Assembly (NCBI RefSeq): GCF_000473265.1
Contig: NZ_KI421511.1
Span: forward strand, 493,980 to 557,979
Length of the DNA: 64,000 nucleotides
Direction of reading: 5' to 3'
From: Amycolatopsis thermoflava N1165
Lineage (GTDB): Bacteria > Actinomycetota > Actinomycetes > Mycobacteriales > Pseudonocardiaceae
Positions 9,882-64,000 of this stretch are shown in pieces. The notes beneath the pieces are model-generated. The model saw only the letters and a program-made list of their open reading frames with translations, ran no database searches and was not told where the DNA came from. Positions within the stretch are counted from its first letter, which is position 1, and every line of letters starts with the position of its first letter. A program made the translations under genes and the position numbers.

Positions 9882-10765
9882 CACACACCATGACCACCAC
9901 GCCGTCGGAAGTGGGCACGTTGGGAGCGGAGGCCATCCGGGACGTGCTGCGGCGCGCGACCGCGGGGTCGCCCATCGCCACCTATGCCGAGGGGCAACCG
10001 CCCGTGTCGTGGAGCGTCCTGGCGGAAGGCGGGTGGGATCTCATCGGTCATCCCGAAAACGGAGCGTCCGTTCGGGATCTCGCCGAGATCGCCCGCGCCT
10101 GGGGGTACGGCTGCGTCCCGTTGCCGCTGATCCCGACGCTCGTCGCGAAGCGCCATTCCGCGGCGGCCGCGGTGCACGACGGCCCGGTCACGCTGGCGCT
10201 TCCGCTCTCCGGAACGACGCGGAGCTACGTGCCGTTCGGGCAGGTGGCCGGCATCCGGCTGGCGACCGGCCTGGGAACCGGGACCGACGAACTGGCCGAC
10301 GTGCCCGACGGGCACGCGGACGACCTGGCGCTGACGATGCTCGGACTCGAATCGGACGTCCGGACCGCGCTCACCGAGACGGTGGCCCGGGAGGTCGCGG
10401 TCCTGCTCGCGGCCGAGGCCACCGGCGGTGCGGAGCGGCTGCTGGCCGATTCGAACGCCTTCGTGGCCGAGCGCAAGCAATTCGGCAAACCCGTGGGTGC
10501 GTTCCAGGCCGTCAAGCACCACCTCGCCGACGCCGCGATCGCGGCCGAACTGGCCGAGACGGGGGTCATCTGGGCAGCCGAGCGGCCACGGGAGGCGTTC
10601 CGCGGGTCCTTGTTCGCGATCGACCGCGGCATCGACATCGCCGAGCTGGCCATCCAGGTGCACGGGGGCCTGGGATTCACCTGGGAAATGGGTCTGCACT
10701 TCCCGCTGCGGCAGATGATGATGGCCCGGGAGCTGGTCTGTGCCCTGGAGGAGCGCTACGGCTGA
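9878..10765 (+). CDS. acyl-CoA dehydrogenase, short partner subunit
   Basis: 295 aa, shorter than the usual ~380 because the N-terminal helical domain is reduced. Clear C-terminal features are ERKQFGKPVGAFQAVKHHLAD and IQVHGGLGFTWEMGLHFPLR. It is translationally coupled to the preceding dehydrogenase, so it is most likely the partner chain of an alpha2beta2 enzyme. Last gene of the operon; a bidirectional hairpin follows. Confidence 0.88.
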   Translation: MTHTMTTTPSEVGTLGAEAIRDVLRRATAGSPIATYAEGQPPVSWSVLAEGGWDLIGHPENGASVRDLAEIARAWGYGCVPLPLIPTLVAKRHSAAAAVHDGPVTLALPLSGTTRSYVPFGQVAGIRLATGLGTGTDELADVPDGHADDLALTMLGLESDVRTALTETVAREVAVLLAAEATGGAERLLADSNAFVAERKQFGKPVGAFQAVKHHLADAAIAAELAETGVIWAAERPREAFRGSLFAIDRGIDIAELAIQVHGGLGFTWEMGLHFPLRQMMMARELVCALEERYG

Positions 10766-10802
10766 TCATCGCCGGCGGAGCGGGCGACTCATCCGAACTG
10801 CT

Positions 10803-10845
10803 CCCCGGGAATCGGACCGAGAGGATTCGGTTCCGGTTCCCGGGG
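10803..10845. terminator. bidirectional terminator hairpin between convergent operons
   Basis: Inverted repeat starting CCCCGGGAATCGG and ending CCGGTTCCCGGGG, with one wobble and one bulge, lies in the 86-bp gap between the convergent ends of the dehydrogenase operon and the CoA-ligase operon. Confidence 0.6.
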
Positions 10846-10851
10846 GCTGGA

Positions 10852-12384
10852 TCATCCGTGGAACAACCCCCGGACCTGGTGGCGCGCGATCTTCTGGCTG
10901 TGGGTCATCGGCAGCGACGCGACGATGCGCACGATGGTCGGTTTCTTGTATCCGGCGAGGAACCGCCGGCAGTGCGCGGTGACGTCTTCCGGGGTGAGGA
11001 CCGCGCCGGTCTCGGGAACTACGGCGGCGGCGACCGTGTGGCCCCAGCGGGGGTGCGGCAGGCCGACGACCGCGCAGGCCGCGACGCCGGGCATGGTCAG
11101 GATGACCCGTTCGACCTCGCTGGGGTAGACGTTCATCCCGCCGGACACGATCAGGTCGGTGCGGCGGTCGGCGATCCGGACATAGCCGTGTGGATCCAGC
11201 GTGCCCAGGTCGCCGGTCCGGAACCAGCCCTGCCGGAAGGCGGCGTCGGTGGCCTCCGGCTGGTGCCAGTACCCGTCGGCGAGGCAGGGCGAGCGCACCC
11301 AGAGCTCACCGACCGTCGTCCCGTCAGCCGTCACCGGGTTGCCCTCGGCGTCGGTGGCCCGCACCTCGGTCTCGGCGACCGCGCGGCCCACGGTGTCGAA
11401 CACGGCGTCGCCGAGGACGGCGCGGTCGACGGGGCTCGTCACGGTCATGAGGCCGCCGGAGTTCTCGGTCATGCCCCACCCTTCGATCAGGCTCGCTCCG
11501 GCGACGTCGGCGAGGTTGCGCAACGCCTCGGGCGGCGCCTTCGACGCGGAGTGCAGCAGCGTGGTCAGGCTCGACCAGGCCGCGGGCCGGGCGCGGATCG
11601 CCTCGGTGAACTCGCCGAGCAGCGGTGACGGCGCGTAGGTGAACGTCGCCCGGTGTTCTTCGACGAGGGCGGACAGGGATCCGACGTCCCAGCGACCGGG
11701 GAACACCACCGTGCCGCCCACGTAGAAGTGCGTCAGGATGTGCGCGGGTACCACGGCGACGAAGGACATCGATCCCGTCATCGCCGCGACGCTGCCGAGC
11801 GGCAGCCGGTACGACAGCGCGTTGATCCGGGCGAGGTTCAGGACCGAGCATTGGGTCAGCCGCGCGCCTTTCGGCCGGCCGGTCGTCCCGCTGGTGTAGC
11901 CGAGGATGTAGAGATCCGATGGGCGTGGTTCGGACAGGGGGCTGACCGAGCCGGACTCGACGAAGGCGCGGTAGTCCGTCTCGTCCCCGGTGTCGACCAG
12001 CAGGAGGTCGTCGATCCCGGAGATGTCGCAGGCCTTGTCCTGCACGGCAGGTCCGAGGACGAGCGCGCGGGCACCCGAGTCGGTCAGCACGTGCTCGGCC
12101 TCGGCGGCGGTGTGCCGGACGTTGATCGGTGCGACGACCAGCCCGGCCAGTGCGCACGCCGCGTACAACACGACGTGGTCCACGCTGTCTTCCAGCCAGA
12201 CGGCGACCCGGTCACCGGGCTCGAGACCGCGCTCGCGGAGCGCGTTTCCCAGCCGCGTCGCTCCGTCGGCGAGGTGACCGTAGCTGAGGCGCCGTCCACC
12301 GGCCTCGACCACCGCGACGCGACCCGGGTGCCGGCGGGCGCCGGAGCTGATCAGCTCCGCGACGGTGCCCAGTGGTGCGGTCAT
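10852..12384 (-). CDS. acyl-CoA synthetase (AMP-forming CoA ligase)
   Basis: 510-aa member of the ANL adenylating superfamily. Motifs in order: YTSGTTGRPKGA (P-loop), GWGMTENSGG (A5-type), WFRTGDLGTLD and RIADRRTDLIVSGGMNVYPSEVE (hinge), and a C-terminal catalytic lysine in THSQKIARHQ. It activates a carboxylic acid as the AMP ester and then the CoA thioester. ATG 12384 lies 7 nt after the flavin reductase stop. Last gene of the minus-strand operon 16296-10852. It probably activates the pathway acid before beta-oxidation; specificity unknown. Confidence 0.92.
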   Translation of the reverse strand: MTAPLGTVAELISSGARRHPGRVAVVEAGGRRLSYGHLADGATRLGNALRERGLEPGDRVAVWLEDSVDHVVLYAACALAGLVVAPINVRHTAAEAEHVLTDSGARALVLGPAVQDKACDISGIDDLLLVDTGDETDYRAFVESGSVSPLSEPRPSDLYILGYTSGTTGRPKGARLTQCSVLNLARINALSYRLPLGSVAAMTGSMSFVAVVPAHILTHFYVGGTVVFPGRWDVGSLSALVEEHRATFTYAPSPLLGEFTEAIRARPAAWSSLTTLLHSASKAPPEALRNLADVAGASLIEGWGMTENSGGLMTVTSPVDRAVLGDAVFDTVGRAVAETEVRATDAEGNPVTADGTTVGELWVRSPCLADGYWHQPEATDAAFRQGWFRTGDLGTLDPHGYVRIADRRTDLIVSGGMNVYPSEVERVILTMPGVAACAVVGLPHPRWGHTVAAAVVPETGAVLTPEDVTAHCRRFLAGYKKPTIVRIVASLPMTHSQKIARHQVRGLFHG

Positions 12385-15477: not shown

Positions 15478-16296
15478 TCAGCCGCGGAAGTGTGCGATGG
15501 CCTGCTTGAGGCCGATGTCCTTGACCAGTTCCTGCAGTTCGGTCACGTCCGGTGTGGTGTGGATCAGCGCGTCGGTGTCTGCGCCCATGCCGGCGACGGT
15601 GAGGAAACCGTGCATCTCCTGCACCCGGTTGATCGCGAGCTTCTTCATCCGCAGGATCGACGCCGGCGTCTTCGCGATGGACAGCGCGAGCTCGCGTACG
15701 TACTTCTCCAGATCCGCGGCCGGGACGGCGGTGTTGGCGAACCCCCATTCCACGGCCGTGCGCCCGTCGATGCGCCGGCCCGGCACGAACGACATCTCCT
15801 TCGCGCGCTGCGGCCCGATCTGGAACGACCACAGGGGCGAGATGAACCCGCCGCCCAGCGGAATCGCGGGGGAGGCGGCGAGCTGGGTGTCCTCGGCGAC
15901 GACGGTGATGTCGCAGAACAGCGCGAGCTGGGTCGCCCCGGCCATGCAGTAACCGTGGACGGCGGCGATGACCGGCTGGGGGTGCCGCCAGATCCGGGTG
16001 AAGCGATCGATGTAGGCCGCCTGCCGGTCACGGTCGGCCACCGAACTTCGCGTGTGCGCGTCGCCGATCTCCTCGGATTCGCCGGAGACGTCGTAGCCGG
16101 CCGAGAAGGCGCGGCCCGCGCCGCGCAGGACGACCACGCGCGCGTCGGAGTTCTCCAGTCGAGCCAGGTGTTCGGCGAGCTCGTCGAGCATGCGCATGGA
16201 CAGCGCGTTGAGCCGATCGGGCCGGTCGAGGGTGAGCCACGCGATCGGTCCCTCCCGCTCGAGGCGCACCTCGGCCGAGGGGGTAGTCGCTGTCAT
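15478..16296 (-). CDS. crotonase-family protein (enoyl-CoA hydratase/isomerase-like)
   Basis: 272 aa from ATG 16296 (an upstream ATG at 16332 is less likely). Crotonase motifs are LRGAGRAFSAGYDV and HGYCMAGATQLALFCD. The first catalytic Glu position is replaced (SPAIPLGGGFISPLW), while the second is retained (RAKEMSF), a single-acid arrangement found in isomerases. It shares several blocks with the crotonase at 7861, which lacks both. First gene of the minus-strand operon (crotonase, ribBA, SDR, SnoaL, flavin reductase, CoA ligase), with operator B 49 bp upstream. Confidence 0.85.
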   Translation of the reverse strand: MTATTPSAEVRLEREGPIAWLTLDRPDRLNALSMRMLDELAEHLARLENSDARVVVLRGAGRAFSAGYDVSGESEEIGDAHTRSSVADRDRQAAYIDRFTRIWRHPQPVIAAVHGYCMAGATQLALFCDITVVAEDTQLAASPAIPLGGGFISPLWSFQIGPQRAKEMSFVPGRRIDGRTAVEWGFANTAVPAADLEKYVRELALSIAKTPASILRMKKLAINRVQEMHGFLTVAGMGADTDALIHTTPDVTELQELVKDIGLKQAIAHFRG

Positions 16297-16345
16297 GTCG
16301 GGCCTGGGCACCGGTCCTCCTCGTCGCTGCACTGTGACAACGACA

Positions 16346-16363
16346 ACCTACCGGTTGTTTGGC
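16346..16363 (-). promoter_or_regulatory. operator site B before the crotonase-ribBA operon
   Basis: ACCTACC-GGTT-GTTTGGC matches the consensus ACCwAmC-N4-GkTTGGT. It lies 49 bp upstream of the crotonase start in a divergent promoter region shared with site C. Confidence 0.6.
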
Positions 16364-16445
16364 TAGCTTTTCAAGACCCTGGCGACCGCATAATGTAGGC
16401 GAAACTGGGCGCTCATTGACGTAGAGGTGCGCCGATTTCTAGTCT

Positions 16446-16463
16446 ACCTATCAGTCGGTTGGT
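16446..16463 (+). promoter_or_regulatory. operator site C before the second dehydrogenase pair
   Basis: ACCTATC-AGTC-GGTTGGT ends 20 bp before the ATG at 16484. Same consensus as site B on the other side of the divergent promoter. Confidence 0.62.
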
Positions 16464-16483
16464 TACCGGGAAGGTGAGGGGCG

Positions 16484-17608
16484 ATGACGCCGTCCGAGCG
16501 AGGGGACCTGTCGCGGTTCTCCTACGAAGCCGAGCAGTGGCTCCGCGACTCCGTGCCCGAGCGCTGGCGGAGCCGGCGGAACTCGCTGTCGCCGGCGGAG
16601 GTCACCGAGGTGCGCCGCGAGTGGGACAAGCAGCTGCACCGCGGCGGGTACGCGGGGCTCTCGCTGCCGCGCGAGTACGGCGGGCAAGGGCTGGGGCTTG
16701 CCGAGGAGGTCGTGTTCCACGAGCTCGCGGCGCGCGCGCACGCACCCGAGGGGTTCGGGCGGATCGGCAAGATCCTGACCGCGCCGACGCTGATCGCGCA
16801 CGGCACCCCTGAGCAGCAGGCGAGGTTCCTGCCGGGGATCCTGTCCGGAGAGCAGATCTGGTGCCAGGGGTTCTCCGAGCCGGGAGCGGGCTCGGACCTG
16901 GCCAGCGTTTCCACGATGGCGCGGCGAGACGGCAACGGCTACCGGGTCACCGGTCAGAAGATCTGGACCAGCTTCGCCGACGTGGCCGACCGCAGCCTGT
17001 TCCTCGCGCGGACGAACCCCGACGCGCCGCGTTACCGCAACCTGTCGATGTTCCTGCTGGACATGAAGCAGCCCGGCGTAACCGTGCGCCCGATCAAGCA
17101 GATCTCCGGCACGTCCCATTTCGCGGAGGTCTTCTTCGAAGACGTCTGGGTGGCCGAGGAGGACCGGCTCGGAGGTGAGGGCGAGGGATGGAAGGTCGCG
17201 ATGACCGTGCTCCAGAACGAGCGCGGCGCGATCGAGGGCATCACCCGCTACGTCGAGATGCGCGGGGACATGGATCTGCTCCTGCGCTGCTGCGCGGCAA
17301 GAGCAGGACGGCTCCTGGACGCAGAGGACTTCGACGTCCGGCTCGAGCTCGTCCGGTGGCAGGTCGGCAAGGCCGTTGAACTGGTCGACGATCCCGTGGC
17401 CTTCGCCCGTGCCGCCTCTGTGCTGAAGGTGACCTGGAGCGAGCTCTGGCAGGAGATGACCGAGCTCGCGATCGCGGCCTCCTGCCCGGATCACCGGAGC
17501 CACTGGCGTCACCAGTACCTGGAGACCCGGTCGTCGTCCATCTACTCCGGTTCCTCGGAGATCCAGCGCAACATCATGGCCGAGCGCGTGCTCGGCCTGC
17601 CGAAGTGA
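16484..17608 (+). CDS. acyl-CoA dehydrogenase, larger subunit of second pair
   Basis: 374 aa, colinear with the dehydrogenase at 8745: SLPREYGGQGLGLAEEVVF, CQGFSEPGAGSDLASV, KIWTSFADVADRS and C-terminal SIYSGSSEIQRNIMAERVLGLPK. ATG with an AGGTGAGGGG ribosome site. It is followed after 6 nt by a short dehydrogenase, repeating the long/short arrangement of 8745-10765, so the locus encodes two paralogous heteromeric dehydrogenases, perhaps for successive chain-shortening or ring steps. Confidence 0.9.
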   Translation: MTPSERGDLSRFSYEAEQWLRDSVPERWRSRRNSLSPAEVTEVRREWDKQLHRGGYAGLSLPREYGGQGLGLAEEVVFHELAARAHAPEGFGRIGKILTAPTLIAHGTPEQQARFLPGILSGEQIWCQGFSEPGAGSDLASVSTMARRDGNGYRVTGQKIWTSFADVADRSLFLARTNPDAPRYRNLSMFLLDMKQPGVTVRPIKQISGTSHFAEVFFEDVWVAEEDRLGGEGEGWKVAMTVLQNERGAIEGITRYVEMRGDMDLLLRCCAARAGRLLDAEDFDVRLELVRWQVGKAVELVDDPVAFARAASVLKVTWSELWQEMTELAIAASCPDHRSHWRHQYLETRSSSIYSGSSEIQRNIMAERVLGLPK

Positions 17609-52590: not shown

Positions 52591-52922
52591 GCGCTCAAGC
52601 TCCTGGTCAACGCGCTGCCGGGATCCGCTCCCGGCGCGGATCCCGGCGACGGAGACCGATCAGGCTGCACGCCGACATGGCCTACGACATTCCCGCACTG
52701 CGCGACTGGCTCAGCCGGCACGGGATCAACCCGTACATCGCCCGCAAAGGCATCGAACCCGGCAACAAGCCCGGCAACACCGGTGGGTCATCGAACAGAC
52801 GATCGCCTGGCCGACCGGCGCCTGACCATCCGCTACGAACACAAATCCAGCCATTCCCTGGCCTTCCTCCCCCTCGCCGCCGCCATCACCTGCTATAAGA
52901 AACCCGCCAAATGAGACACGCT
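52591..52922 (+). mobile_element. 3' remnant of another IS5-family element
   Basis: Transposase C-terminal pieces in two frames: LHADMAYDIPALRDWLSRHGINPYIARKGIEP, and RRLTIRYEHKSSHSLAFLPLAAAITCYKK ending at TGA 52914. Its outer end GAGCGTGTCTCA (read on the minus strand at 52915-52926) adjoins the acyl-CoA dehydrogenase gene. The left part is missing. Confidence 0.65.
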
Positions 52923-54155
52923 CTTAGAGTTGTCGCACTGGAACTCCGGCTCATGTCGGAGCTCGGACTTCGCGATGGCGTTGAGGTGGACCTCGTCGGG
53001 GCCGTCGAACAGGCGCATCGCGCGGTGCCAGGCGTACATGGCGGCCAGCGGTGTCGTGTCCGTGACGCCGGCGCCGCCATGGACCTGGATCGCGCGGTCG
53101 ATCACGCGCGTCGCCACGCGGGGGACCGCCACCTTCGCCATCGCGACCAGGTCGCGCGCGGCCTTGTTGCCCTCGACGTCAATGACGTGCGAGGCCCGGT
53201 GACACAACAGCCGCGCCTGCTCGATCTCCAGCCGGGACTCGGCGATCTGCTGCCGCACGACGCCTTGCTCGGCCAGTGGCGCGCCGAAGGCCACCCGGCC
53301 CTTGGCGCGCTGCACCAACATGGCCAGCGCGCGTTCGGCCGCGCCCAGGGCTCGCATGCAGTGGTGGATGCGTCCGGGGCCGAGCCGGGCCTGCGCGGCG
53401 GCGAACCCGCCGCCCTCACCGCCGATTACGTTGGTGACCGGAACCCGGACGTCGGTGAAGCGGACCTCGGCGTGGCCGTGCTGGTCGTGGTGGCCGAACA
53501 CCGGGTAGTCGCGCACCACGGTGATGCCCGGCGTGTCGCGGGGAACCAGGACCATGGTCTGCTGCCGGTGGGCCGGCGCAGTGGGGTCGGTCTTGCCCAT
53601 CAGGATGAACACCGCACAGCGCGGGTCCATCGCGCCGCTGGTCCACCACTTGCGGCCGTTGATGACGTACGAGTCGCCATCGCGCTCGATCCTGGTGGCG
53701 ATGTTGGTGGCGTCGCTGCTGGCCACGTCCGGTTCGGTCATCGCGAAGGCGGAGCGGATCTTCCCGGCCAGCAACGGTTCCAGCCACTCGCGCTTCTGCT
53801 CCTGCGTGCCGAGCAGGTGCAGCAGTTCCATGTTGCCGGTGTCGGGGGCCTGGCAGTTGGTCGCCTCCGGCGCGAGCTCGAGGCTCCACCCGGACAGCTC
53901 GGCGATCGGGGCGTACTCCAGCTGCGTCAGCCCCGACTCGGCAGGCAGGAACAGGTTCCAAAGGCCCCCGGCCCGCGCCTGCTCCTTCAACTCCTCGACC
54001 ACCGGAGGCACCGTGTGGTCATCCGGGCCGGCGGCCGCCCGCTCGGCGTGGTAGCGCGCCTCCGCGGGCAGTACCCGCTCCCGCATGAATCGCGCCATCG
54101 CGTCACGCAGCTCGACCGCGCGGGGCGAGGGAGCGGGCAGCTCGTAGCTGACCAT
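52893..54155 (-). CDS. acyl-CoA dehydrogenase (ACAD10/11-like)
   Basis: 420 aa: LWNLFLPAESGLTQLEYAPIAE, FAMTEPDVASSDATNI (flavin loop), RKWWTSGAMDPRC, GRIHHCMRALGAAERAL and IQVHGGAGVTDTTPLA. This matches the dehydrogenase domain of ACAD10/ACAD11-type enzymes rather than classical short-chain dehydrogenases. The last ~10 residues (KSVSHLAGFL) are encoded by the end of the IS remnant, so the native C-terminus has been replaced. Divergent to the kinase operon at 55173 and sharing a 20-bp operator-like site with it. Confidence 0.86.
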   Translation of the reverse strand: MVSYELPAPSPRAVELRDAMARFMRERVLPAEARYHAERAAAGPDDHTVPPVVEELKEQARAGGLWNLFLPAESGLTQLEYAPIAELSGWSLELAPEATNCQAPDTGNMELLHLLGTQEQKREWLEPLLAGKIRSAFAMTEPDVASSDATNIATRIERDGDSYVINGRKWWTSGAMDPRCAVFILMGKTDPTAPAHRQQTMVLVPRDTPGITVVRDYPVFGHHDQHGHAEVRFTDVRVPVTNVIGGEGGGFAAAQARLGPGRIHHCMRALGAAERALAMLVQRAKGRVAFGAPLAEQGVVRQQIAESRLEIEQARLLCHRASHVIDVEGNKAARDLVAMAKVAVPRVATRVIDRAIQVHGGAGVTDTTPLAAMYAWHRAMRLFDGPDEVHLNAIAKSELRHEPEFQCDNSKSVSHLAGFL

Positions 54156-54172
54156 GAACGCCTCCTGAACAA

Positions 54173-54192
54173 GACCGATCGAATGTTCGGCT
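54173..54192 (-). promoter_or_regulatory. operator-like site before the ACAD gene
   Basis: GACCGATCGAATGTTCGGCT matches the site at 55141 in 15 of 20 positions and has an inverted CCGA...TCGG core. It lies 17 bp upstream of the ACAD ATG. Confidence 0.5.
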
Positions 54193-54219
54193 GAACATAA
54201 CGACCTGACGACGGGCGCG

Positions 54220-55050
54220 TCAACTGGCGAGGCGCACCAGGTCCCGCGCGAACCCGACGTACTGGCGCGCGACGACCTCGGGGGAGTACCCGCCCTTCGG
54301 GGACCACCACTGCGGCAACGCGGTGCACATCGTGACGACCGCGCGCGCGGCTTCGCGTGGCAGTGGCGTGGTCATCAAGCCGCGGCGGCACCCCTCGACG
54401 ACTTCGTCGTCGACCATCCGCTGCACCTCCCGCCGGGCCTCGGCGATCCGCGTTCGTTGCGGCTCCTCGACGCTGCGCATCTCGCTTGCCCCGATGAACC
54501 CCAGCTCACGGCGGTGCGTGTGGTACAGCGCGAGGCACTCGATCAGGCCGGTGAAGCGCTCGACCGGGCCGTCGCCCTCGGCGCGGGCCGCCCTGCACCG
54601 CTCCCGCAGGTCGTCCATCGTGAGGTCCATCAACGCCACGAGCAGGTCCTGCTTGGCCGGCCAGTGGTGGTAGACTCCCGCCACCGACAGGCCCGCGCGA
54701 TGTGCGACGTCCCGGATCGTGGCGCCGTGGTAGCCGAGTTCCACGAACGCCTCGAGCGCGCCGGTCAGCGGTGCCGCGAGGCGCAGCGGCGGGAAATCGC
54801 GCCAGTGACCGCGCGGCGGCGCCGCCGGTGCGCCCCGCAGATTGTCCGCCGTGGTGCCGAACAGGTGCGCCGCCGCGTCGAGTCGTGCCGCGGAAAGGCG
54901 GGTGCGCCCGTTCTCTACAGCGCTCCACGTCCCCGCGCTCACGCCGAGCGCTCGCGCGGCCTCCCGCAGGGTGAGACCGGCGTCCCGTCGTGCGGTGCGC
55001 AGACGTTCCCCGAGCAGCTCGCGCTCCTCGCTGTCCTGTGATCGCGGCAA
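54220..55050 (-). CDS. XRE-TetR fusion transcriptional regulator
   Basis: 276 aa with two DNA-binding domains. Residues ~10-70 form a Cro/C1 HTH (LGERLRTARRDAGLTLREAARALGVSAGTWSAVENGRTRL). From ~95 a TetR HTH follows (LEAFVELGYHGATIRDVAHRAGLSVAGVYHHWPAKQDLL), then a TetR C-terminal domain ending WWSPKGGYSPEVVARQYVGF. Most TetR proteins have only one HTH. It lies between the two copies of a 20-bp palindromic site and probably represses the ACAD gene and the kinase operon. Confidence 0.85.
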   Translation of the reverse strand: MPRSQDSEERELLGERLRTARRDAGLTLREAARALGVSAGTWSAVENGRTRLSAARLDAAAHLFGTTADNLRGAPAAPPRGHWRDFPPLRLAAPLTGALEAFVELGYHGATIRDVAHRAGLSVAGVYHHWPAKQDLLVALMDLTMDDLRERCRAARAEGDGPVERFTGLIECLALYHTHRRELGFIGASEMRSVEEPQRTRIAEARREVQRMVDDEVVEGCRRGLMTTPLPREAARAVVTMCTALPQWWSPKGGYSPEVVARQYVGFARDLVRLAS

Positions 55051-55140
55051 CTGGTTGGCTCCTTTCCGCTGGAGGTGACCCTAGCCGTCCTTGACATGCG
55101 GACGACCGCTCCGTCAGAGTACCGCTGTCGTGTTCAATCA

Positions 55141-55160
55141 GACCGTACGAACGCTCGGTT
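55141..55160 (+). promoter_or_regulatory. operator-like site before the kinase operon
   Basis: GACCGTACGAACGCTCGGTT, partner of the site at 54173, ends 12 bp before ATG 55173. A TTGACA-like -35 element lies at 55091. It is also 90 bp upstream of the regulator's own start. Confidence 0.52.
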
Positions 55161-55172
55161 TCGGAGGTAGAG

Positions 55173-56198
55173 ATGGTCCAGGCAACCGCACCGCCCGGGG
55201 TGGCGGTCCCTCCGCTCGAGGCGTTCCTGAGGGCCGAGTGCCCGGGAATGCTCACCGGGCCCCTGCGTGCCGAGCTGCTCCCGGGCGGTCGGTCCAACCT
55301 GACCTACCTGCTCACCGACGGGCACAAGCGCTGGGTGCTGCGCCGCCCGCCGCTCGGGCACGTCCTGGCCACCGCCCACGACATGGACCGCGAGTACCGC
55401 GTGCTCGGCGCCCTGCACCCGACCGAGGTCCCGGTGCCCCGCCCGATCGTGAGCGGTGGCCCCGACGTCATCGGCGCGTTCTTTTACGTCATGGACTTCG
55501 CCGACGGCGAAGTCCTGCGCGACCGCACCCAGCTGCAGACGGTCAACGCGACGGCGCTCGCCGGGCAGCTCGTCGACGTGCTCGCGCGCCTGCACTGCCT
55601 CGTTCCTGCCGCCGTCGGGCTCGCCGACCTCGGGCGCCCCGCCGGCTACCTGGAGCGGCAGGTCCGTCGCTGGGGCAAGCAGCTCGCCGCATCCCGCAGC
55701 CGCGACGTGCCCGGACTCGACGAACTCGGACACCGCCTGGGGAAGCGGCTGCCCGCGCACCAGCGGGGGGCGATCGTCCACGGCGACTACCGGCTGGACA
55801 ACGTCGTCGTCGGCGGAGACGGCACGATCACCGCCGTCCTGGATTGGGAGATGGCCACACTCGGGGACCCGCTGACCGACCTGGCGTCCATGCTCGTCTG
55901 GTGGGACGGGATCAGCGGTCTCGACAGCCCGGTCGCCGCCGTGCCCGGTGACGTCCCGGGGTTCCCGCCCGGCAGCACGCTCGTCGAACATTACGCGCGA
56001 GCCACCGGCCACGACCTGACCGATCTCGCCTGGTACCTGGGTTTCGCTTACTACAAGATCGCCGTGATCTTCGAAGGCATCCACTACCGCGCCCAGCAGG
56101 GTCTCACCGTCGGCGAGGGCTTCGACCGGCTCGGCGCCCTGGTCCCCGATCTCGTCGAGCGCGGGCACGGCGCTCTCACCACTCCGACCTCCCGCTGA
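55173..56198 (+). CDS. APH-family phosphotransferase, ACAD10/11 kinase type
   Basis: 341 aa aminoglycoside-phosphotransferase-like fold: LPGGRSNLTYLLTDGHKRWVLRRPP (ATP-binding lysine region), HGDYRLDNVVV (Brenner motif with catalytic Asp and Asn) and LDWEMATLGDPLTDLA (metal-binding Asp). This is the bacterial counterpart of the kinase domain fused to the dehydrogenase in mammalian ACAD10/11, which phosphorylates 4-hydroxyacyl-CoA before elimination; LvaA of levulinate catabolism is related. The ACAD encoded divergently supplies the other half. Followed by SDR and crotonase genes. Confidence 0.86.
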   Translation: MVQATAPPGVAVPPLEAFLRAECPGMLTGPLRAELLPGGRSNLTYLLTDGHKRWVLRRPPLGHVLATAHDMDREYRVLGALHPTEVPVPRPIVSGGPDVIGAFFYVMDFADGEVLRDRTQLQTVNATALAGQLVDVLARLHCLVPAAVGLADLGRPAGYLERQVRRWGKQLAASRSRDVPGLDELGHRLGKRLPAHQRGAIVHGDYRLDNVVVGGDGTITAVLDWEMATLGDPLTDLASMLVWWDGISGLDSPVAAVPGDVPGFPPGSTLVEHYARATGHDLTDLAWYLGFAYYKIAVIFEGIHYRAQQGLTVGEGFDRLGALVPDLVERGHGALTTPTSR

Positions 56199-56215
56199 AC
56201 AGAGGACAGACACAC

Positions 56216-57058
56216 ATGAGCACACTGGCCGGCAAGACCCTGCTGATGTCGGGCGGCAGCCGCGGCATCGGGCTCGCGATAGCCCTGCGAGCCGCCCGCG
56301 ACGGCGCGAACGTCGTCATGCTCGCGAAGACCGCCCAACCCCATCCGCGGCTGCCGGGGACCGTCCACAACGCGGTCGCCGAAGTCGAGCAGGCCGGGGG
56401 AGCGGCACTCGCCGTCGTCGGCGACGTGCGCAAGGATGACGACGCCCACCGCGCCGTGGACGCCGCGGTCGACCGGTTCGGCGGCATCGACATCGTCGTC
56501 AACAACGCTAGCGCCCTTGACCTGCGCGGCACCCGCGAGATCGCGATGAAGAGCTACGACCTCATGCAGGACATCAACGCGCGCGGCACGTTCTTGCTCA
56601 GCAAGCTCGCGATCCCGCACCTGGAGCGCAGTGCGCACGCCCACATCCTCACCCTGTCCCCGCCGCTGGATCTGCGGCCCAAGTGGGCCGGCTCCTACCT
56701 CGCCTACACGATGTCCAAGTACGGCATGAGCCTGGTGACCCTGGGCCTTGCGGAGGAACTGCGGGAAGCGGGCATCGCCGCGAACTCGCTGTGGCCGCGC
56801 ACCACGATCGCCACCGCCGCCGTGGCCAACCTCCTCGGCGGCGACGAGGCGCTCGAACGCGCTCGCACCCCGGAGATCATGGCCGACGCCGCGCACGCGA
56901 TCCTCGTCCGCGATCCCCGCTTCTGCACCGGGAACTTCTTCCTCGACGACGAGGTGCTCGCCGACGAGGGTGTCACCGACTTCGGCCGCTACCGCGCAGG
57001 CAGCGGCGACGAGCCGCTGGAGGCCGACCTGTTCCTCGACCCGGTGGAGGTCCGGTGA
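56216..57058 (+). CDS. SDR, HSDL2-like
   Basis: 280 aa: LLMSGGSRGIGLAIALRAARDGANVVMLAK, GTVHNAVAEVEQAGGAAL, DIVVNNASAL and YTMSKYGMSLV (catalytic Tyr/Lys). The start pattern and HPRLPGTV segment are typical of hydroxysteroid-dehydrogenase-like protein 2, a group that also appears in citronellol-type catabolic loci. Lies 17 bp after the kinase and overlaps the next gene by GTGA. Probably a hydroxyacyl-CoA or alcohol dehydrogenase. Confidence 0.84.
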   Translation: MSTLAGKTLLMSGGSRGIGLAIALRAARDGANVVMLAKTAQPHPRLPGTVHNAVAEVEQAGGAALAVVGDVRKDDDAHRAVDAAVDRFGGIDIVVNNASALDLRGTREIAMKSYDLMQDINARGTFLLSKLAIPHLERSAHAHILTLSPPLDLRPKWAGSYLAYTMSKYGMSLVTLGLAEELREAGIAANSLWPRTTIATAAVANLLGGDEALERARTPEIMADAAHAILVRDPRFCTGNFFLDDEVLADEGVTDFGRYRAGSGDEPLEADLFLDPVEVR

Positions 57059-57840
57059 ACCCCGTCGCCTACGACTTCCACGACAACGTTGCCCGCATCC
57101 GCCTGTGCGACGGCGCACGCGGCAACCCGATCAACCAGACCACAGTGGACGCCCTCGCACGGGCGGCCCGCCGGGCCCGCGCGGACGACGCACATGTGGT
57201 CGTCCTGTCCGCCGAGGGCCGCGCGTTCAGCTTCGGCGGCGACGTGGCCGCCTTCGCCGAGCCCGGCGACACCGAGCAGCGCATCGATGACCTCGCCGAG
57301 ACGCTGCACCGCGCCGTCAGCGACCTGCACCGGATGAACGCCGTGGTCGTCTCGGTGGTGCACGGCGTGGCCGCCGGCGCGGGATTGTCGCTGGCGGCTG
57401 CGGCCGACCTCGTCCTCGCCGGGGAGTCGGCCCGCTTCACCCTCGCCTACACCAAGATCGGCTTCTCCCCGGACGGCGGCAGCACCCTGCTGCCCGCCTC
57501 GCTCGGACTGCACCGGTCGCTGCGGCTGGCACTGCTCAACCCGGTCCTCACCGCGCACGAAGCCCGCGAGGCCGGGCTCGTCGCGGAGGTGTTCGGCGAC
57601 GACCAGCTCACCGACGGCGTCGAAGCCGTCGTGCACCAGCTGCGGACCGGTTCCCGCGCCGCGCAGGTCGCGACGAAACGGCTGCTGCGCGAGACCGCCA
57701 CCCCGGGCGCGGAAGCAGCACTGCGCCGGGAGACATTGTCGATCCGTACCCGCGCCGCCAGCCCCGACGGTCGCGAAGGCGTGGCCGCTTTCCTGGGCAA
57801 ACGGGCGCCGCGGTTTCCCGGGACAGCAATGTCCCCCTAA
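57055..57840 (+). CDS. crotonase-family enoyl-CoA isomerase/hydratase
   Basis: 261 aa from GTG 57055. LSAEGRAFSFGGDV and HGVAAGAGLSLAAAADL form the oxyanion hole. The segment AYTKIGFSPDGGSTLLP replaces the first hydratase Glu and places an Asp in the PDGG position, as in PaaG/ECI-type isomerases. The stop TAA is also the 3-bp target duplication of the IS5-family element that follows, so the coding sequence is complete. Confidence 0.86.
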   Translation: MNPVAYDFHDNVARIRLCDGARGNPINQTTVDALARAARRARADDAHVVVLSAEGRAFSFGGDVAAFAEPGDTEQRIDDLAETLHRAVSDLHRMNAVVVSVVHGVAAGAGLSLAAAADLVLAGESARFTLAYTKIGFSPDGGSTLLPASLGLHRSLRLALLNPVLTAHEAREAGLVAEVFGDDQLTDGVEAVVHQLRTGSRAAQVATKRLLRETATPGAEAALRRETLSIRTRAASPDGREGVAAFLGKRAPRFPGTAMSP

Positions 57841-58833: not shown

Positions 58834-59211
58834 ATGAGCGGGAAGCTGAACGAGGTCGGGACGGGGATCAACCTCTTCGTCGCCGGGGAGGTGCGTGGTA
58901 CCGCCCGGTGGTTCTACGACACGGCCGACGTGCTGTCGATCGACGACGACGATCTCGACGACACGATCGCGTTCGTCAACAAGGGCGGCATGACGTTCCT
59001 GTCGCCGATCCTGCCCGACCTGCGGGCCATCGTCTGCACTGCGGGAAGCCGTGAGTCGCACCTGGCGATCTTGTGCCGCGAGTCCGACGTGCCGTGCGTC
59101 CTCGCGGCCGAGCTGAGCACCACGGTGGCCGACGGGGACACCGTGGTGCTCGACCTCGCCGACGCCGACGCCGCCCGCGTGGCCGTGGCCGCCGGGGTGG
59201 TGACGGCATGA
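58834..59211 (+). CDS. stand-alone PEP-utilising swivel (phospho-histidine) domain protein
   Basis: 125 aa from ATG 58834 (GGAG 6 nt before). Resembles the mobile domain of PEP synthase / pyruvate phosphate dikinase: MTFLSPILPDLRAIVCTAGSRESHLAILCRESDVPCVL. His76 in the SHLAI motif is the phosphorylatable residue of the family. Neither an ATP-grasp domain nor a PEP-binding TIM barrel is encoded nearby. Its start of translation is followed by a coupled partner gene, and the same two parts are fused in the protein at 60407. Possibly part of a phosphotransferase for a pathway metabolite. Confidence 0.75.
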   Translation: MSGKLNEVGTGINLFVAGEVRGTARWFYDTADVLSIDDDDLDDTIAFVNKGGMTFLSPILPDLRAIVCTAGSRESHLAILCRESDVPCVLAAELSTTVADGDTVVLDLADADAARVAVAAGVVTA

Positions 59212-60410
59212 CGGCCCAGCTCACGACACCCGCGAACGTTGACGCGATCTACACCGACCCCTCCTACGAGCCGACGCTCGAGGAGTGGAACTGGCTGGTG
59301 CACACCGCGGGCGCGGCCTACAAGTCCGAGCTCGCCGCCCGCACCGTGTTCGAGTCCGAACTGTTCGGGATGAACACCTACATTCTGATGTCGATGATGG
59401 AGGACTACCTCCGCGTCCCGGAGCGCATCCGCACGATCCGGCGGCACGCCACCCCCACCGAGCTGGTGCGCAAGACACTGCCGATCGGCACCAAGCGCAG
59501 CTTCATCAATCTCGCGGCCATGCCGCTGCACTACCTCACGGGCCGCGAACTGTTCGTCGACCTCGGTGAGAACACGCTCGCCGACGGCCTCGACGACCAG
59601 CTCGAGGTGCTGCGCTTCTGGCGGCAGGCCACCATCGCCATGCGCACCGACGGCGTGCTGTTCAACATGGACGCCGACCCGGCCGACAGCTCGCACGTCG
59701 TCGACGATGCGCTGCTCGCCGAGATCCGAGACCAGCTGGTGCCCGCCGACGAGACCACCAAGGCCGGCATCCGCAAGTTCGGCGCCCGGCTGACCGCCTA
59801 CGCGTTCCTGGAGAACTGCGACGCCCGCACCGCTGTCTGCGACACCGGCCCCTACCAGTTCGACGACGGCACGTTCCTCGCGCTGCGCGAAACCTGCGCC
59901 GACGGCGACGGCGACTTCCCGTGGGTCGATGGGATCCGGGAAACCCTGCCCTACCACCACTTCGTCATCGCCCACCGTCTGCCCGGGACCGTCAAGATGG
60001 ACAACAACGTGTGGGGCACCGCCTGGTTCACCCCCAGCGACTACCAGTCCGAGATCCTTGAAACCCGCGTGTTCTGCGCCGACGGCGGCACCCTGCGCCC
60101 GCTCGGCCCGGCCGAGGTCGCCGAGGCCACCAACGCGATCCGCTCCGCCCACCGCGCGCTCTACCAGCGCCTCGCCGAAACCGATCCCGAGCAGCGCAAC
60201 CTCTACGCGACCCAGATGTACGCCTGGAAACTCAAGGCGTGGGCGCGGCTGGCCGGCTGCTACGACGACATCGACTGGAGCATCACCCCGCGTATCGCGC
60301 GGTCCTACGACAAGTTCAGCGTTCCTGACCTGGCGTTGCGCCTCATCGGCGGCGTGTTCGTGCCCCAGGACCGCGACAGCTGTTTCCGCCCACTCGGAGG
60401 TTCCCGATGA
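59208..60410 (+). CDS. swivel-domain partner protein of unknown fold
   Basis: 400 aa, no family recognised. Largely helical N-terminus with AARTVFESELFGMNTYILMS. Later blocks CDARTAVCDTGPYQ, VWGTAWFTPSDYQ, HRALYQRLAETDPEQRNLYA and DDIDWSITPRIARSYDKF recur in the C-terminal 400 residues of the protein at 60407. It overlaps the swivel gene and the next gene by ATGA, so the three are made together. Conserved Cys/Asp/Trp residues suggest an enzyme, perhaps the acceptor-binding part of a split phosphotransferase (inference). Confidence 0.55.
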   Translation: MTAQLTTPANVDAIYTDPSYEPTLEEWNWLVHTAGAAYKSELAARTVFESELFGMNTYILMSMMEDYLRVPERIRTIRRHATPTELVRKTLPIGTKRSFINLAAMPLHYLTGRELFVDLGENTLADGLDDQLEVLRFWRQATIAMRTDGVLFNMDADPADSSHVVDDALLAEIRDQLVPADETTKAGIRKFGARLTAYAFLENCDARTAVCDTGPYQFDDGTFLALRETCADGDGDFPWVDGIRETLPYHHFVIAHRLPGTVKMDNNVWGTAWFTPSDYQSEILETRVFCADGGTLRPLGPAEVAEATNAIRSAHRALYQRLAETDPEQRNLYATQMYAWKLKAWARLAGCYDDIDWSITPRIARSYDKFSVPDLALRLIGGVFVPQDRDSCFRPLGGSR

Positions 60411-62014
60411 CCATCCTCGGCAAAGGCGCTCCGTCCTACTTGTTCGCTCCCGTCACCGGGACGGTCCGGCACTTCCGCTCTCCCGACGACGTCATCGCCT
60501 CGCTGGAGTCCGATCTGGAGTCGACGATCGCGCTCGTGGCCTCCGGCGGCACGACATTCCTTTCCCCCATCCTCGGCCGCCTCGGCGGGATCGTGTGCCT
60601 CGACGGTACTCTGCGCTCCCACCTCGCGATCGTCTCGCGCGAGTTCGAGGTGCCCTGCTTGGTCGGCACCGATCTGCCCGAGGACCTGACCGACGGTACC
60701 GAGATCGTCCTGGACATCGAGGACGGCACCGGTGTGGTCCGCCAGGCCGAGGAAACCTCGGCTGACGTTTCCGACGCGTGGTGGTCCTACATCCGTCGGG
60801 TCGGCGACGACATCGCGGTCAACGACTTCGACCTCACCGTGTCCCCGGCGGCCCTGGACCGGCTCATCGCCGAAGAACTGACCGACGACCGGCTTGACGA
60901 CCTCGTGCAGCACATGGGCCGCGCCTTCAAACCGGAGATGACCCGGCGCTCTGGGTTCACCTCCGAGCTGTTCCCGATGCTGCCCTACATGTCCCTATCA
61001 GTTATCGAGGACTTCCACAGCTATGCCGCGCGCGTGGCCGCGATCGACGCTGCCATGCCCGCCGAGGAACTGGGCAAGCGGCTGCGTGAGGGACCGAACC
61101 AGGTGAGTCCGCTGTGGATCTGGATGATCGGCTACCACTACCTTTGCGGACGCGAGTGCCTGATCAAGATGGGCAAGCTCGCCCCGAGGGAGCGGCGCGA
61201 AGAGATCCGCACCGTCGTCGACTTCTGGCGCAGGCTCACCCTGGCCCACCGCGGTGACGGGACGCTGGACTACAAGGACGCCGGGTTCACCAACCGCTAC
61301 CTGCCAGCCGGTGTCGTCGACGAGCTGACCCGCGCCGCGACCACACTCGGCGCGGCCGAGTCCAAGGCGCTCAAACGGCTCAACGCCACCGTGTCCGGCT
61401 ACTCGTTCCTGTACTTCTGCGACTCGCGCGTGGGCATCTGCGACTCCGGACCCTACCCGCGCGGAGGCACCCGGCAGACCATCGTGCGCGACTACCTGTC
61501 GCTGGGCCCGAGCGCGTGGGCCTACCCGTGGGCGCAGGACCTCGAACCGGCCTACGCGGGGCTGACGATGGCGCTGACCTTCGACCGCACCGCCTTCACC
61601 GAGTTCGAGATCAACGACTGGGGCACCACGTTCACCGAACCCGACCAGCTACTGGCCGCGGTGGACGAGGCCGCGGTCTTCGGCTACCGTCCCGACGGCG
61701 CCCGCGAACTCCTTCCACCCTCGGCGTGGCCAGAGGTTGCCGCCGACCTCAGCCGCCAGCACATGAAGCTCTACCAGCGGTTCGCGGCGATGGACCGGCG
61801 CGAGCGGATCTTCGCCGCTATCACGATGTACACCTCGGGACTGCGCCCGTTCGCCGCAATCGCCGGTGTCACGGACCGGATCGACTGGTCGTTCTCGCCC
61901 GGCACGCTGGCGCTCTACCCCGACCCGTTCGACGACGACGACCAGGCGGCGGCCATCTTCGGTGGCGCGCTCGTCGCCAACGACATGCCGGGCTCGTTCT
62001 CGCCGGTGCGCTAG
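60407..62014 (+). CDS. fused swivel domain and partner domain protein
   Basis: 535 aa. Residues 1-115 are a PEP-utilising swivel domain (TTFLSPILGRLGGIVCLDGTLRSHLAIVSREFEVPCLVG with His72 in SHLAI). Residues ~140-535 match the 59208 protein in several blocks: SGYSFLYFCDSRVGICDSGPYP, INDWGTTFTEPDQ, HMKLYQRFAAMDRRERIFAAITMY and DRIDWSFSPGTLALYPDPF. It is therefore the fused form of the two preceding genes and strongly suggests that those two interact. Function unknown. Confidence 0.65.
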   Translation: MTILGKGAPSYLFAPVTGTVRHFRSPDDVIASLESDLESTIALVASGGTTFLSPILGRLGGIVCLDGTLRSHLAIVSREFEVPCLVGTDLPEDLTDGTEIVLDIEDGTGVVRQAEETSADVSDAWWSYIRRVGDDIAVNDFDLTVSPAALDRLIAEELTDDRLDDLVQHMGRAFKPEMTRRSGFTSELFPMLPYMSLSVIEDFHSYAARVAAIDAAMPAEELGKRLREGPNQVSPLWIWMIGYHYLCGRECLIKMGKLAPRERREEIRTVVDFWRRLTLAHRGDGTLDYKDAGFTNRYLPAGVVDELTRAATTLGAAESKALKRLNATVSGYSFLYFCDSRVGICDSGPYPRGGTRQTIVRDYLSLGPSAWAYPWAQDLEPAYAGLTMALTFDRTAFTEFEINDWGTTFTEPDQLLAAVDEAAVFGYRPDGARELLPPSAWPEVAADLSRQHMKLYQRFAAMDRRERIFAAITMYTSGLRPFAAIAGVTDRIDWSFSPGTLALYPDPFDDDDQAAAIFGGALVANDMPGSFSPVR

Positions 62015-62037
62015 CTCGTCAGGAAGGAGGCGCCATC

Positions 62038-63183
62038 GTGCGCCAGTCGATGCAGAAGATCGTCCCCGCGGACGAGCTGCTCTGCCACCAAACCCCCGAG
62101 ACGTTCGCGACGATCAGCCAGGCCGACATCTCCTGGACCGAGAAGCTGTGGGCATCGCTGTTCGCCCGCGACGGCTCGCTCCAGGTGGACTGCGGCATCG
62201 GCAAGTACCACAACCGCAACGTCATCGACATGTTCGCCGGCATCTCCCGCGGCACCGAGCAGCTGACCGTGCGGGCGAGCCGCCGCCTGGACTCCGACCC
62301 GGATCGGGTCGGAGTTGGCCCGCTCGACTACGAGGTCGTCGAACCGCTCAAAGCGGTCCGGTTCGTGCTGCGGGAGAACCACCTGCTGCCCATCCGGTTC
62401 GATCTCACCGTCACCGGGGTCCTGCCGCCGTTCCTGGAGGCCAAGGACGGACAACGCGAGCCCGACGGGTTCCGCATCTGCTCCGACCTGCTGCGCTACC
62501 ACCAGGCCTCGACGGTATGCGGACGCATCTGGATCGACGGCGAACAGATCGAGGTGCGCGACGACGAGTGGTTCGGATTCCGCGACCACTCGTGGGGCGT
62601 GCGGATGGACGTCGGCGAGCCACCGCCGGACGTGCACCGCAGGCAACGGCTCGACGGGAACTTCATCCTCACCTGGAGCCCGATGTGGATGCGAAACCCG
62701 GACGGCACCAGCTACGAGGTGCACCACTACCACCAGTGGGTCGACGGGAAGACGACCTACTTCTCCGGGTTCGTCAACCACCCCGACGGCACGCAGACCC
62801 CGTTGCACAACGTGCAGGACGAGCTGAAGTTCGACCCGGTCAACCGGCGCCTGCTCGGCGGCAAGATGACCTTCGACGCCGGATGGGGCCAGACCCGCAC
62901 CGTCGAGATTGAACCCGCCAGTGACACCGGGTTCCACCTCGGCACCGGACTGTACTTCGGGTTCAAGGGCCACCGGCACGGCACCTGGCTCGGCGAGTCC
63001 CATCTGGACGGTGAGCGCTACGCCGACGTGTCCGATCCGGACACCGCCCGCGAGGTGCACCAGCTGCGGGACTGCGTGATCCGCTGCCGCGAAGGCGACG
63101 CCACTGGCTACGGCATCTTCGAGTCGATGGTCATCGGTGAGCACCCGCGCTACGGGCTGACCCGGGAATCGTCCTTCCTGTAA
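62038..63183 (+). CDS. CrtC/AttH-like lipocalin-fold protein (hypothetical)
   Basis: 381 aa from GTG 62038 with the strong ribosome site AGGAAGGAGG. The segment EWFGFRDHSWGVRMDVG and the later WSPMWMRN and YHHYHQW-like aromatic strands resemble the double-lipocalin group of carotenoid-hydratase (CrtC) and AttH-like proteins, many of which are uncharacterised. Such folds bind hydrophobic ligands and a few hydrate double bonds. It ends the cassette; a terminator hairpin follows. Confidence 0.55.
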   Translation: MRQSMQKIVPADELLCHQTPETFATISQADISWTEKLWASLFARDGSLQVDCGIGKYHNRNVIDMFAGISRGTEQLTVRASRRLDSDPDRVGVGPLDYEVVEPLKAVRFVLRENHLLPIRFDLTVTGVLPPFLEAKDGQREPDGFRICSDLLRYHQASTVCGRIWIDGEQIEVRDDEWFGFRDHSWGVRMDVGEPPPDVHRRQRLDGNFILTWSPMWMRNPDGTSYEVHHYHQWVDGKTTYFSGFVNHPDGTQTPLHNVQDELKFDPVNRRLLGGKMTFDAGWGQTRTVEIEPASDTGFHLGTGLYFGFKGHRHGTWLGESHLDGERYADVSDPDTAREVHQLRDCVIRCREGDATGYGIFESMVIGEHPRYGLTRESSFL

Positions 63184-63236: not shown

Positions 63237-64000
63237 TCAGATCCGCGACGAGCGGGCCAGCAACGCCAGCTCCATCCGCGACTGGCACCCGGTCGCGGAC
63301 AAGATCCGGCTCACGTACTTCTTCACGCTGTCCTCAGCCAGCGACAGCGTGTCGGCGATCTGCGCGTTGGAGAACCCGTCCGCCACGAGCTGCACGACCT
63401 GCCGCTGCCGCTCGGACAACCGCCCCAGCGCGGCCTGCGGGCGCGACACCGGAAGGCCCCGACAGATCACCGACAACTGCCTGCTCAGCAACCGCAGCGT
63501 CGACAGCTCGGACACGCCCAGCTTGTCCTCCTGAGGGTCGAACATGCCCACCAGGGCGGTGTGCCCGCCGGGCAGTTCCAGGCGCAGCGCGGCCGCCGCC
63601 TCCATACCCCACGTCGAGATCAGGAAATGGCGTACGTAGGCCTCCGCCGACGCGGGCAGCGGCCCTTGCGAGGTCAGTTCGACCAGCGAGGACACTCCAC
63701 TGGACACCAGCTGGCGCATCGCCGCCGGCGTGCCGAACACGTCGTAGCGGGCCCAGCGGTCCTGGTACTCCGGCAGCATCTTCGCCGTCTTGCCCTCGGT
63801 GAGCGGCGTGACGTCACCGAAGACGTTGTGGAACGTGGCGCCGGCGAAGAACGACACGTGTTCGAGCGCGAAGTGTTCACGCAGCGCGTCGACGACGCTT
63901 TCCTTGAAATCCACCACGCACGCGGCGGTGTCGCAGCACTCGAGGACACCGAAAGCCCGTTCGTAGTCGCCGGTGCGCAGGCTGGTTCGTTTCGGGGAAC
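63237..64000 (-). CDS. LuxR-family regulator, 5' end outside window
   Basis: The frame stays open to base 64000 (RTSLRTGDYERAFGVLECCDTAACVVDF precedes the GTG at 63917), so the start probably lies beyond the window. The middle ~150 residues look like a GAF-type sensor (VSFFAGATFHNVFGDV, RLELPGGHTALVGMFD). The C-terminus is a LuxR HTH: LGRLSERQRQVVQLVADGFSNAQIADTLSLAEDSVKKYVSRILSATGC. It converges on the swivel-domain cassette and may regulate it or genes further right. Confidence 0.82.
   Translation of the reverse strand, partial: SPKRTSLRTGDYERAFGVLECCDTAACVVDFKESVVDALREHFALEHVSFFAGATFHNVFGDVTPLTEGKTAKMLPEYQDRWARYDVFGTPAAMRQLVSSGVSSLVELTSQGPLPASAEAYVRHFLISTWGMEAAAALRLELPGGHTALVGMFDPQEDKLGVSELSTLRLLSRQLSVICRGLPVSRPQAALGRLSERQRQVVQLVADGFSNAQIADTLSLAEDSVKKYVSRILSATGCQSRMELALLARSSRI

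Follow-up and report, generated by a model that had tools for sequence, protein, structure and literature searches.

What does a phosphate-carrying swivel domain do beside a protein of no recognisable family, and where would its phosphate come from and go to? The question is raised by a cassette of four genes, P0001 to P0004, near the end of the window, by which we mean the whole 64,000-nucleotide stretch of Amycolatopsis thermoflava N1165 that was analysed. Our answer, to which we give a probability of roughly 0.6, is that the cassette supplies the carrier and acceptor half of an ATP-dependent dikinase that acts on small molecules and is built from several proteins. Its donor half would consist of P0006, a protein resembling pyruvate phosphate dikinase (PPDK) that has an ATP-grasp domain and a swivel and no recognisable pyruvate barrel, and of the 202-aa protein P0008, both encoded 3.9–6.2 kb past the window end.

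The open reading frames of 125, 400, 535 and 381 aa lie exactly where the first-pass annotation of this DNA had placed them (Table 1). It had read P0001 as a stand-alone swivel with His76 and P0003 (whole frame 60407-62014) as a fusion of both modules, and this was borne out. P0001 and P0003 score 42.3 and 37.7 bits against PF00391 (cut-off 23.1), which places both among the swivels of phosphoenolpyruvate (PEP) utilising enzymes, His76 stands in a column invariant across four swivels, and the remainder of P0003 is related to P0002. We refer to the module shared by P0002 and P0003 as X. The claim that all the frames are coupled by ATGA holds for two junctions, P0001/P0002 (59208-59211) and P0002/P0003 (60407-60410). 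It does not hold for P0004: the TAG stop codon of P0003 (62012-62014) is followed by 23 bases, AGGAAGGAGG, and then by the GTG start codon of P0004 at 62038.

Neither the profile searches nor the fold search with a model of P0003 linked X to a non-phosphotransferase family or to any other known family or fold, which agrees with the earlier proposal of a phospho-swivel system that includes a 400-aa module not described before. A profile of 45 X rows had no match among PDB sequences at E 10. In Pfam six families were hit by one member each (best E 0.027), which we took as chance, and NCBIfam gave nothing for P0002 and the swivel alone for P0003. The AlphaFold2 model of P0003 (mean pLDDT 91.2, pTM 0.78) begins with a swivel, continues with helices and a strand-rich region (344-436) and closes with further helices. 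We compared it with the PDB using Foldseek at E 10, where the best 50 of 199 rows, given without query ranges, were considered. Eleven matches had E ≤0.001, all of them PPDK or pyruvate kinase, and rifampin phosphotransferase (RPH) came next with E 0.001–0.02. For pyruvate kinase, RPH and the isolated PPDK carrier domain the matches cover 110–127 columns (rmsd 2.3–3.8), which is the size of a swivel. Several PPDK rows extend over 228–382 columns with rmsd 12–20 and a TM-score of 0.17–0.21 of the query; in our reading these do not count as matches to X, so the X half has no convincing fold match among the rows considered.

We also asked how X compares with the acceptor domains of known swivel phosphotransferases, using as control the NCBIfam family PRK08296 (HpeH/CreH-like), whose rows of about 600 aa carry a C-terminal swivel. 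We infer that the family includes CreH from the C. glutamicum and B. subtilis ring, in which one of the two is over the cut-off. The acceptor part, taken from five rows, found RPH chains at E 4.5e-4, and the swivels of the X cassettes aligned with those of PRK08296 over 88 columns (hhalign probability 96.9, E 1.5e-10). X against the acceptor part gave a probability of 0.2 and E 0.31. As the control detects RPH and X does not match the control, X is not detectably a domain of the rifampin-binding or HpeH type, and we ruled this candidate out by profile. Across the 45 X rows 17 columns are invariant, including R113, R207, R227, S50, Y58, Y216 and Y338 of P0002, and such Arg, Tyr and Ser residues would suit an anion-binding or active site. 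A midpoint-rooted FastTree phylogeny of these rows groups the X of P0002 (X1) with that of P0003 (X2, support 0.949), places the third X described below (X3) apart and leaves a second clade outside. Fusions of swivel and X occur in 23 frames across the 70 loci surveyed, and two loci (L051, L052) keep the same X2 split from its swivel, so the difference looks like simple gene fusion or fission.

The survey started from 168 relatives obtained in one scan of named genomes, the best 80 of which were kept as 70 loci, and it therefore represents relatives of close and intermediate distance; near-duplicates occur among the loci (for example L054 and L072), and L059 seems to be the same record as L021. 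Each of the 120 X domains in these loci is either fused to a swivel in one frame or has one no more than 400 bases away on its own strand. The swivel His was retained in 132/132 frames, alone or fused to X, drawn from the window, its continuation (L004), loci L020–L030 and the 70 loci; 130 were recognised by pattern and two by eye (GTPMSHI in L027 and GTPRSHI in L028). Thus neither loss of the His nor separation of swivel and X, either of which would have spoken against the first-pass annotation, was observed. Four frames longer than 480 aa (L068, L070, L071, L079) fell outside the scoring by a length rule; they are not PPDK and have an S/C/T-His pair somewhere within, which is a weak test. 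X itself is rare, with homologues in 8/298 genomes of the order and 5/296 genomes of a phylum sample, the own genome being counted in both. Together with the 70 loci, this is more recurrence than chance would give. One X locus (L065) is titled as a Bifidobacterium breve metagenome-assembled genome and resembles the Nanopelagicales assemblies L063 and L066, so that its name may be wrong.

The first-pass annotation had described the cassette as lacking an ATP-grasp partner and had implied two X units. Both statements fail once the cluster is followed past the window end, where a third swivel, an X, a CoA ligase, the 202-aa protein and the PPDK-like protein lie within 0.1–6.2 kb. When P0002 was searched against the own genome, the third X was located at G000:C1:558838-559920, about 0.9 kb past the end, making three in total. 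The order of this second cassette is a LuxR gene on the minus strand, the swivel P0007, the X protein P0005 (523 aa), the AMP-dependent CoA ligase P0009, P0008 and P0006, followed by genes for a biotin carboxyl carrier protein (BCCP), biotin carboxylase (BC), a carboxyltransferase (CT) of PYC_OADA/HMGL type, an OB-fold protein, a thiolase and Y_phosphatase3. P0006 (G000:C1:562489-564219) starts 4.5 kb beyond the window and has a PPDK_N ATP-grasp domain (7.9e-45) and a swivel (6.5e-24) with the classical motif GGATSHAAVV. With this partner just outside the window, X need not be a phosphate donor, so that part of the earlier proposal that X is an acceptor-binding or phosphate-donor module is not needed; acceptor binding is its better half and would be the role of X in our reading.

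Regarding P0006, its score against PRK05878 (761.5 bits, cut-off 456) passes an equivalog cut-off, so it would be named PPDK, though no barrel is recognised. It ends 108 residues after the swivel match, no pyruvate barrel family was found in the Pfam-type domain search, and its best TIGR01828 stretch stops at 535 of 865. We therefore rejected P0006 as a working PPDK. In a second clade of loci (clade B) the PPDK-like proteins are longer (795–853 aa), and the two that were checked (828 and 835 aa) are also without a barrel family. The last ~320 aa of these proteins in L082 and L088 are conserved in clade B and match no Pfam family; they are possibly a decayed pyruvate barrel. P0008 has a weak winged-helix resemblance (PF24409, E 0.0077, under the cut-off; best PDB match E 0.09). 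In view of this weak match, of its conserved polar residues and of its travelling with PPDK, we rejected it as a plain regulator. Presumably it is the counterpart of Rv1126c, going by gene pairing and size.

The donor genes accompany X in most loci. A PPDK-like frame is present in 63/70 (62 cover the ATP-grasp part, and that of L061 is cut by a contig end) and a 202-aa frame in 62/70. Nine loci are short of one or both genes, seven of which (L051, L052, L053, L061, L074, L087, L097) span just 3.8–11.5 kb. We searched whole genomes for seven of the nine (all except L053 and L061) and for four further ones, and found the 202-aa gene in 10/11, the genome of L087 being the exception, and the PPDK-like gene in 12/12 with the own genome included. 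Moreover, the 202-aa gene occurs in 59/298 order genomes, including 8/8 with X, and these eight are its top eight matches, a ranking biased in their favour, as at least one of them (L059) went into the profile. Of the genomes in the phylum sample 27/296 have the gene, including 5/5 with X (a fragment in G475). The 202-aa and PPDK pair also exists with no X nearby, in L103, in the mycobacterium-like L104 and L108 and in a second copy in the own genome. This copy (L101, G000:C1:7324000-7343900, positions 9662-11948) is a divergent pair with a PPDK-like protein of 533 aa and no swivel-X nearby; positions 16031-17608 of the same locus encode a 525-aa protein whose C-terminal region is PPDK-like. 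Four further loci (L102, L105, L106, L107) have a 202-aa member and no PPDK-like gene in the surrounding 20 kb, and given such members the family may have another role.

Two arrangements can be recognised among the loci. Clade A (Pseudonocardia, Amycolatopsis, Rhodococcus, Gordonia, Nocardia and others) has the order swivel, X, FadD, 202-aa protein, PPDK, often with biotin carboxylase genes, and in many loci a LuxR-type gene in the same place. Clade B (Xanthobacter, Bradyrhizobium, Methylocella, several Pseudonocardia) mostly has swivel, X, 202-aa protein, PPDK. One clade-B operon of this order (L088, 14393-20016) lies beside microcompartment shell genes (EutN_CcmL, BMC), an aldehyde dehydrogenase, a HAD hydrolase and DUF7064/7065; the passages retrieved from the main text of a microcompartment catalogue (PMC8217296) contain no match for this locus. 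At least two X are present in 26/70 loci, and an Rv3169-family gene adjoins X in 24 of these. Frames for BC are found in 21/26 multi-X and 11/44 single-X loci.

P0004 had been called CrtC/AttH-like, an assignment that we replace: the protein belongs to the NCBIfam family Rv3169_fam, and its sole PDB relatives at E 1 are entries of the 25-phosphosteroid lyase (9fzn, 9g2i, 9g4c), to which it is homologous over residues 11-323 with the shared motif RD.SWGVR. Asp183 of this motif (FRDHSWG in P0004) is kept in 26/27 matching frames, the window and sister locus L020 included, the exception being a second, shorter frame of L047 that does not contain the region. Two deposited lyase sequences differ at the Asp of RDRSWG (D versus N), which suggests a designed mutant, and by this token the Asp would be catalytic. 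P0004 is thus a putative phospholyase, predicted to eliminate phosphate. In anaerobic cholesterol breakdown, as described in parts of PMC11061730 and PMC8449060, 25-HSK attaches phosphate to the tertiary alcohol at C25, and the putative lyase 25-PSL subsequently removes this phosphate by elimination. The retrieved part of PMC8449060 does not state that 25-HSK is a swivel enzyme, and we dropped that idea; PMC7176365, in the part available, concerns selenide, water dikinase and was a false lead.

The closest functional parallels are the two-component dikinases HpeHI, CreHI and PpsAB. According to excerpts of PMC12167813, HpeHI phosphorylates a phenol by means of one ATP-grasp protein and one protein combining swivel and acceptor domain. 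A separate ATP-grasp protein, a swivel His and an acceptor-binding module, the last proposed for X, would be common to both, and the swivels are homologous. Homology of the acceptor domains was not detected, the ATP-grasp protein P0006 is of PPDK type with a swivel of its own, the cassette swivels are free or N-terminal, and the system has an additional 202-aa protein and as many as three X units. We propose that the cassette works like HpeHI, PpsAB and RPH and lies outside the HpeHI/CreHI/PpsAB group. The RPH fold matches (5hv1, 5hv2, 5hv3, 5fbs, 5fbu) span 110–119 columns, a swivel length, and no match to the rifampin-binding domain was seen among the 50 rows. In the Hpe pathway phosphorylation is followed by biotin-dependent carboxylation, dephosphorylation, CoA ligation and cleavage (PMC9618137, in part). 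That catabolic cluster shares biotin carboxylase, phosphatase and CoA ligase with the second cassette, which by annotation encodes a matching series of activities (kinase parts, BCCP/BC/CT, phosphatase, CoA ligase, thiolase). The other parallel is VadK (Rv1127c), a barrel-less PPDK with a small operonic partner according to passages of PMC13400623, like P0006 with P0008; this comparison is by description only. The first-pass annotation overlooked these likenesses to HpeHI and VadK, as it did the phosphate-removing neighbours, P0004 and the phosphatases.

Autophosphorylation of a barrel-less PPDK, as in VadK, and the parallel with HpeHI lead us to the proposal that P0006 and P0008 are the donor, the swivels the carriers and X the acceptor site. 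The domains, the conserved His, the co-occurrence, the missing barrel and the lyase resemblance are read from sequence; all of the chemistry, the partner of the swivels and the identity of the acceptor are predictions built on them. The ATP-grasp domain of P0006 would phosphorylate the His of a swivel, either the one within P0006 or one in the free and fused swivel proteins. A free swivel could be charged from the ATP-grasp site or from the swivel of P0006. The phospho-swivel would then dock on X, and the phosphate would pass to a hydroxyl- or enol-bearing molecule held there. In the window cassette P0004 would eliminate the phosphate to leave an alkene, the net result being an ATP-driven dehydration. 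In the neighbouring cassette the biotin enzymes would carboxylate the product, Y_phosphatase3 dephosphorylate it, FadD make the CoA ester and the thiolase cleave it, as in the Hpe pathway.

Several observations weigh against this reading. X shows no relation to the acceptor part of PRK08296 and, in the fold search reported above, no convincing match in the PDB, so its role is read from the company its gene keeps. The cassette swivels (GSRESH, GTLRSH, GAPESH) mostly do not have the GG of the xxGGxxxH motif described for HpeH. P0006 has its own swivel; the second one is unexplained and could be regulatory. Two loci with full flanks (L080, L084) have no donor genes within 10 kb, both genomes having them elsewhere, and in G427, G313 and G475 the best PPDK frame, of 894–980 aa, may be a complete enzyme. 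With BC frames in just 11 of the 44 single-X loci, an Hpe-like route cannot be general. The similarity of P0004 to the lyase is only local, no P0004-like gene was found in the 44 single-X loci, and the DUF7064/7065 protein of clade B (L082) did not match the lyase at E 1, which weakens the phospholyase as a general rule.

The same genes could be read as a protein-directed phosphorelay, in which donor and swivels regulate pathway enzymes and X is a target-binding or sensor subunit. VadK is the model for this: it autophosphorylates at His422, interacts with methylcitrate-cycle enzymes and is published as acting on proteins (PMC13400623, in the passages available). There is no swivel-X in the 20 kb surrounding each of the mycobacterium-like pairs L104 and L108, and the pairs found without X nearby, the 51 order genomes with a 202-aa gene and no detected X, and the several paralogous swivel-X units per locus, which would suit several targets, all fit a relay. 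We nevertheless consider it unlikely, as phosphatases and a phospholyase-like protein are located in the clusters and the second cassette parallels the Hpe pathway, where it is the substrate that receives the phosphate.

It is less probable still that X itself is catalytic, for instance on a phosphorylated or enol intermediate, with the swivel activating it or coupling energy as in ligases with a phospho-His carrier. The swivels of the ligases RedH and PigC match P0001 weakly (E 0.0021 and 0.0071), and X has conserved Arg and Tyr and belongs to no known kinase or acceptor family; those matches, however, cover the swivel alone, and nothing shows catalysis by X. We regard as very improbable that P0001–P0004 are a specialised copy independent of P0006, drawing its phosphate from another donor, for instance the second PPDK-like pair at G000:C1:7.33 Mb. 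Such a pair does exist, and an insertion sequence separates the cassette from its upstream genes, yet the cassette retains its His and the lyase motif, and most multi-X loci place it beside a second cassette with a PPDK-like gene. A dikinase with P0006 and P0008 as its donor half remains our preferred reading.

The insertion sequence is flanked by TAA on each side, the left one being the stop codon of the enoyl-CoA hydratase/isomerase (ECH) gene, and its ends are inverted repeats matching at 20/23 positions. It is absent at the equivalent place in the sister genome (L020), which has the identical order APH, SDR, ECH, swivel. The element is not part of the ancestral cluster and now splits the cassette from these genes. 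The region upstream of the cassette (52893-57840) encodes an acyl-CoA dehydrogenase, a TetR-like regulator, an APH-fold kinase (P0010), an SDR oxidoreductase and the ECH protein. The presence of a kinase next to an acyl-CoA dehydrogenase is reminiscent of phosphorylate-then-eliminate routes of the ACAD10/11 type. APH-like frames occur in 3/26 multi-X and 0/44 single-X loci, so this kinase is not a constant neighbour.

Table 1. Coordinates of the swivel-X cassette and of neighbouring features in the window.
Feature	Position	Strand	Evidence
P0001, stand-alone swivel (putative phospho-His carrier), 125 aa, GSRESHLAI, His76	58834..59211	+	PF00391 E 5.9e-11; His column invariant
P0002, X domain alone (X1), 400 aa, proposed acceptor-binding module	59208..60410	+	no Pfam, NCBIfam or PDB relative
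P0003, swivel half, GTLRSHLAI	60407..60763	+	PF00391 E 1.5e-9; AlphaFold2 model; Foldseek matches to PPDK, pyruvate kinase, RPH
P0003, X half (X2)	60764..62014	+	28–30 % identity to P0002
P0004, Rv3169-family protein, 381 aa, proposed phospholyase	62038..63183	+	NF053593 E 1.7e-114; 25-phosphosteroid lyase 9fzn E 1.6e-22
LuxR-type regulator, 277 aa, between the two cassettes, extends beyond window end	63237..64000	-	PF00196 E 1.3e-13
Insertion sequence (transposase frames), between ECH and P0001	57841..58725	-	absent in sister locus L020
P0010, APH-fold kinase, upstream in cluster	55173..56198	+	PF01636 E 4.9e-50
SDR oxidoreductase, PRK08278 type, upstream	56216..57058	+	NF006133 E 6.4e-129
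ECH family, upstream	57055..57840	+	NF005804 E 7.1e-45, under that model's cut-off

Beyond the single locus, a wider proposal can be made, which we put forward tentatively and regard as rather doubtful when taken as a whole. X would represent a new class of acceptor domain for phospho-His swivels, and barrel-less PPDKs like VadK would, together with their small partner, be general donors charging free swivels, from swivel to swivel or from the ATP-grasp domain to the free swivel. A single donor could then supply a number of swivel-X units that each have a substrate of their own, and the window cassette would drive ATP-dependent dehydration of an alcohol by way of a phosphoester and P0004. We found no description of the swivel-X cassette among the matches listed in a search of titles and abstract openings of the open-licence literature. 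If true, our reading would add another architecture to the small-molecule dikinases, one whose substrate module belongs to none of the families searched. It would also provide a genomic setting in which barrel-less PPDKs, which were described recently, have an evident carrier and acceptor. For actinobacteria, it predicts both a dehydration step driven by ATP and a route that combines phosphorylation with carboxylation.

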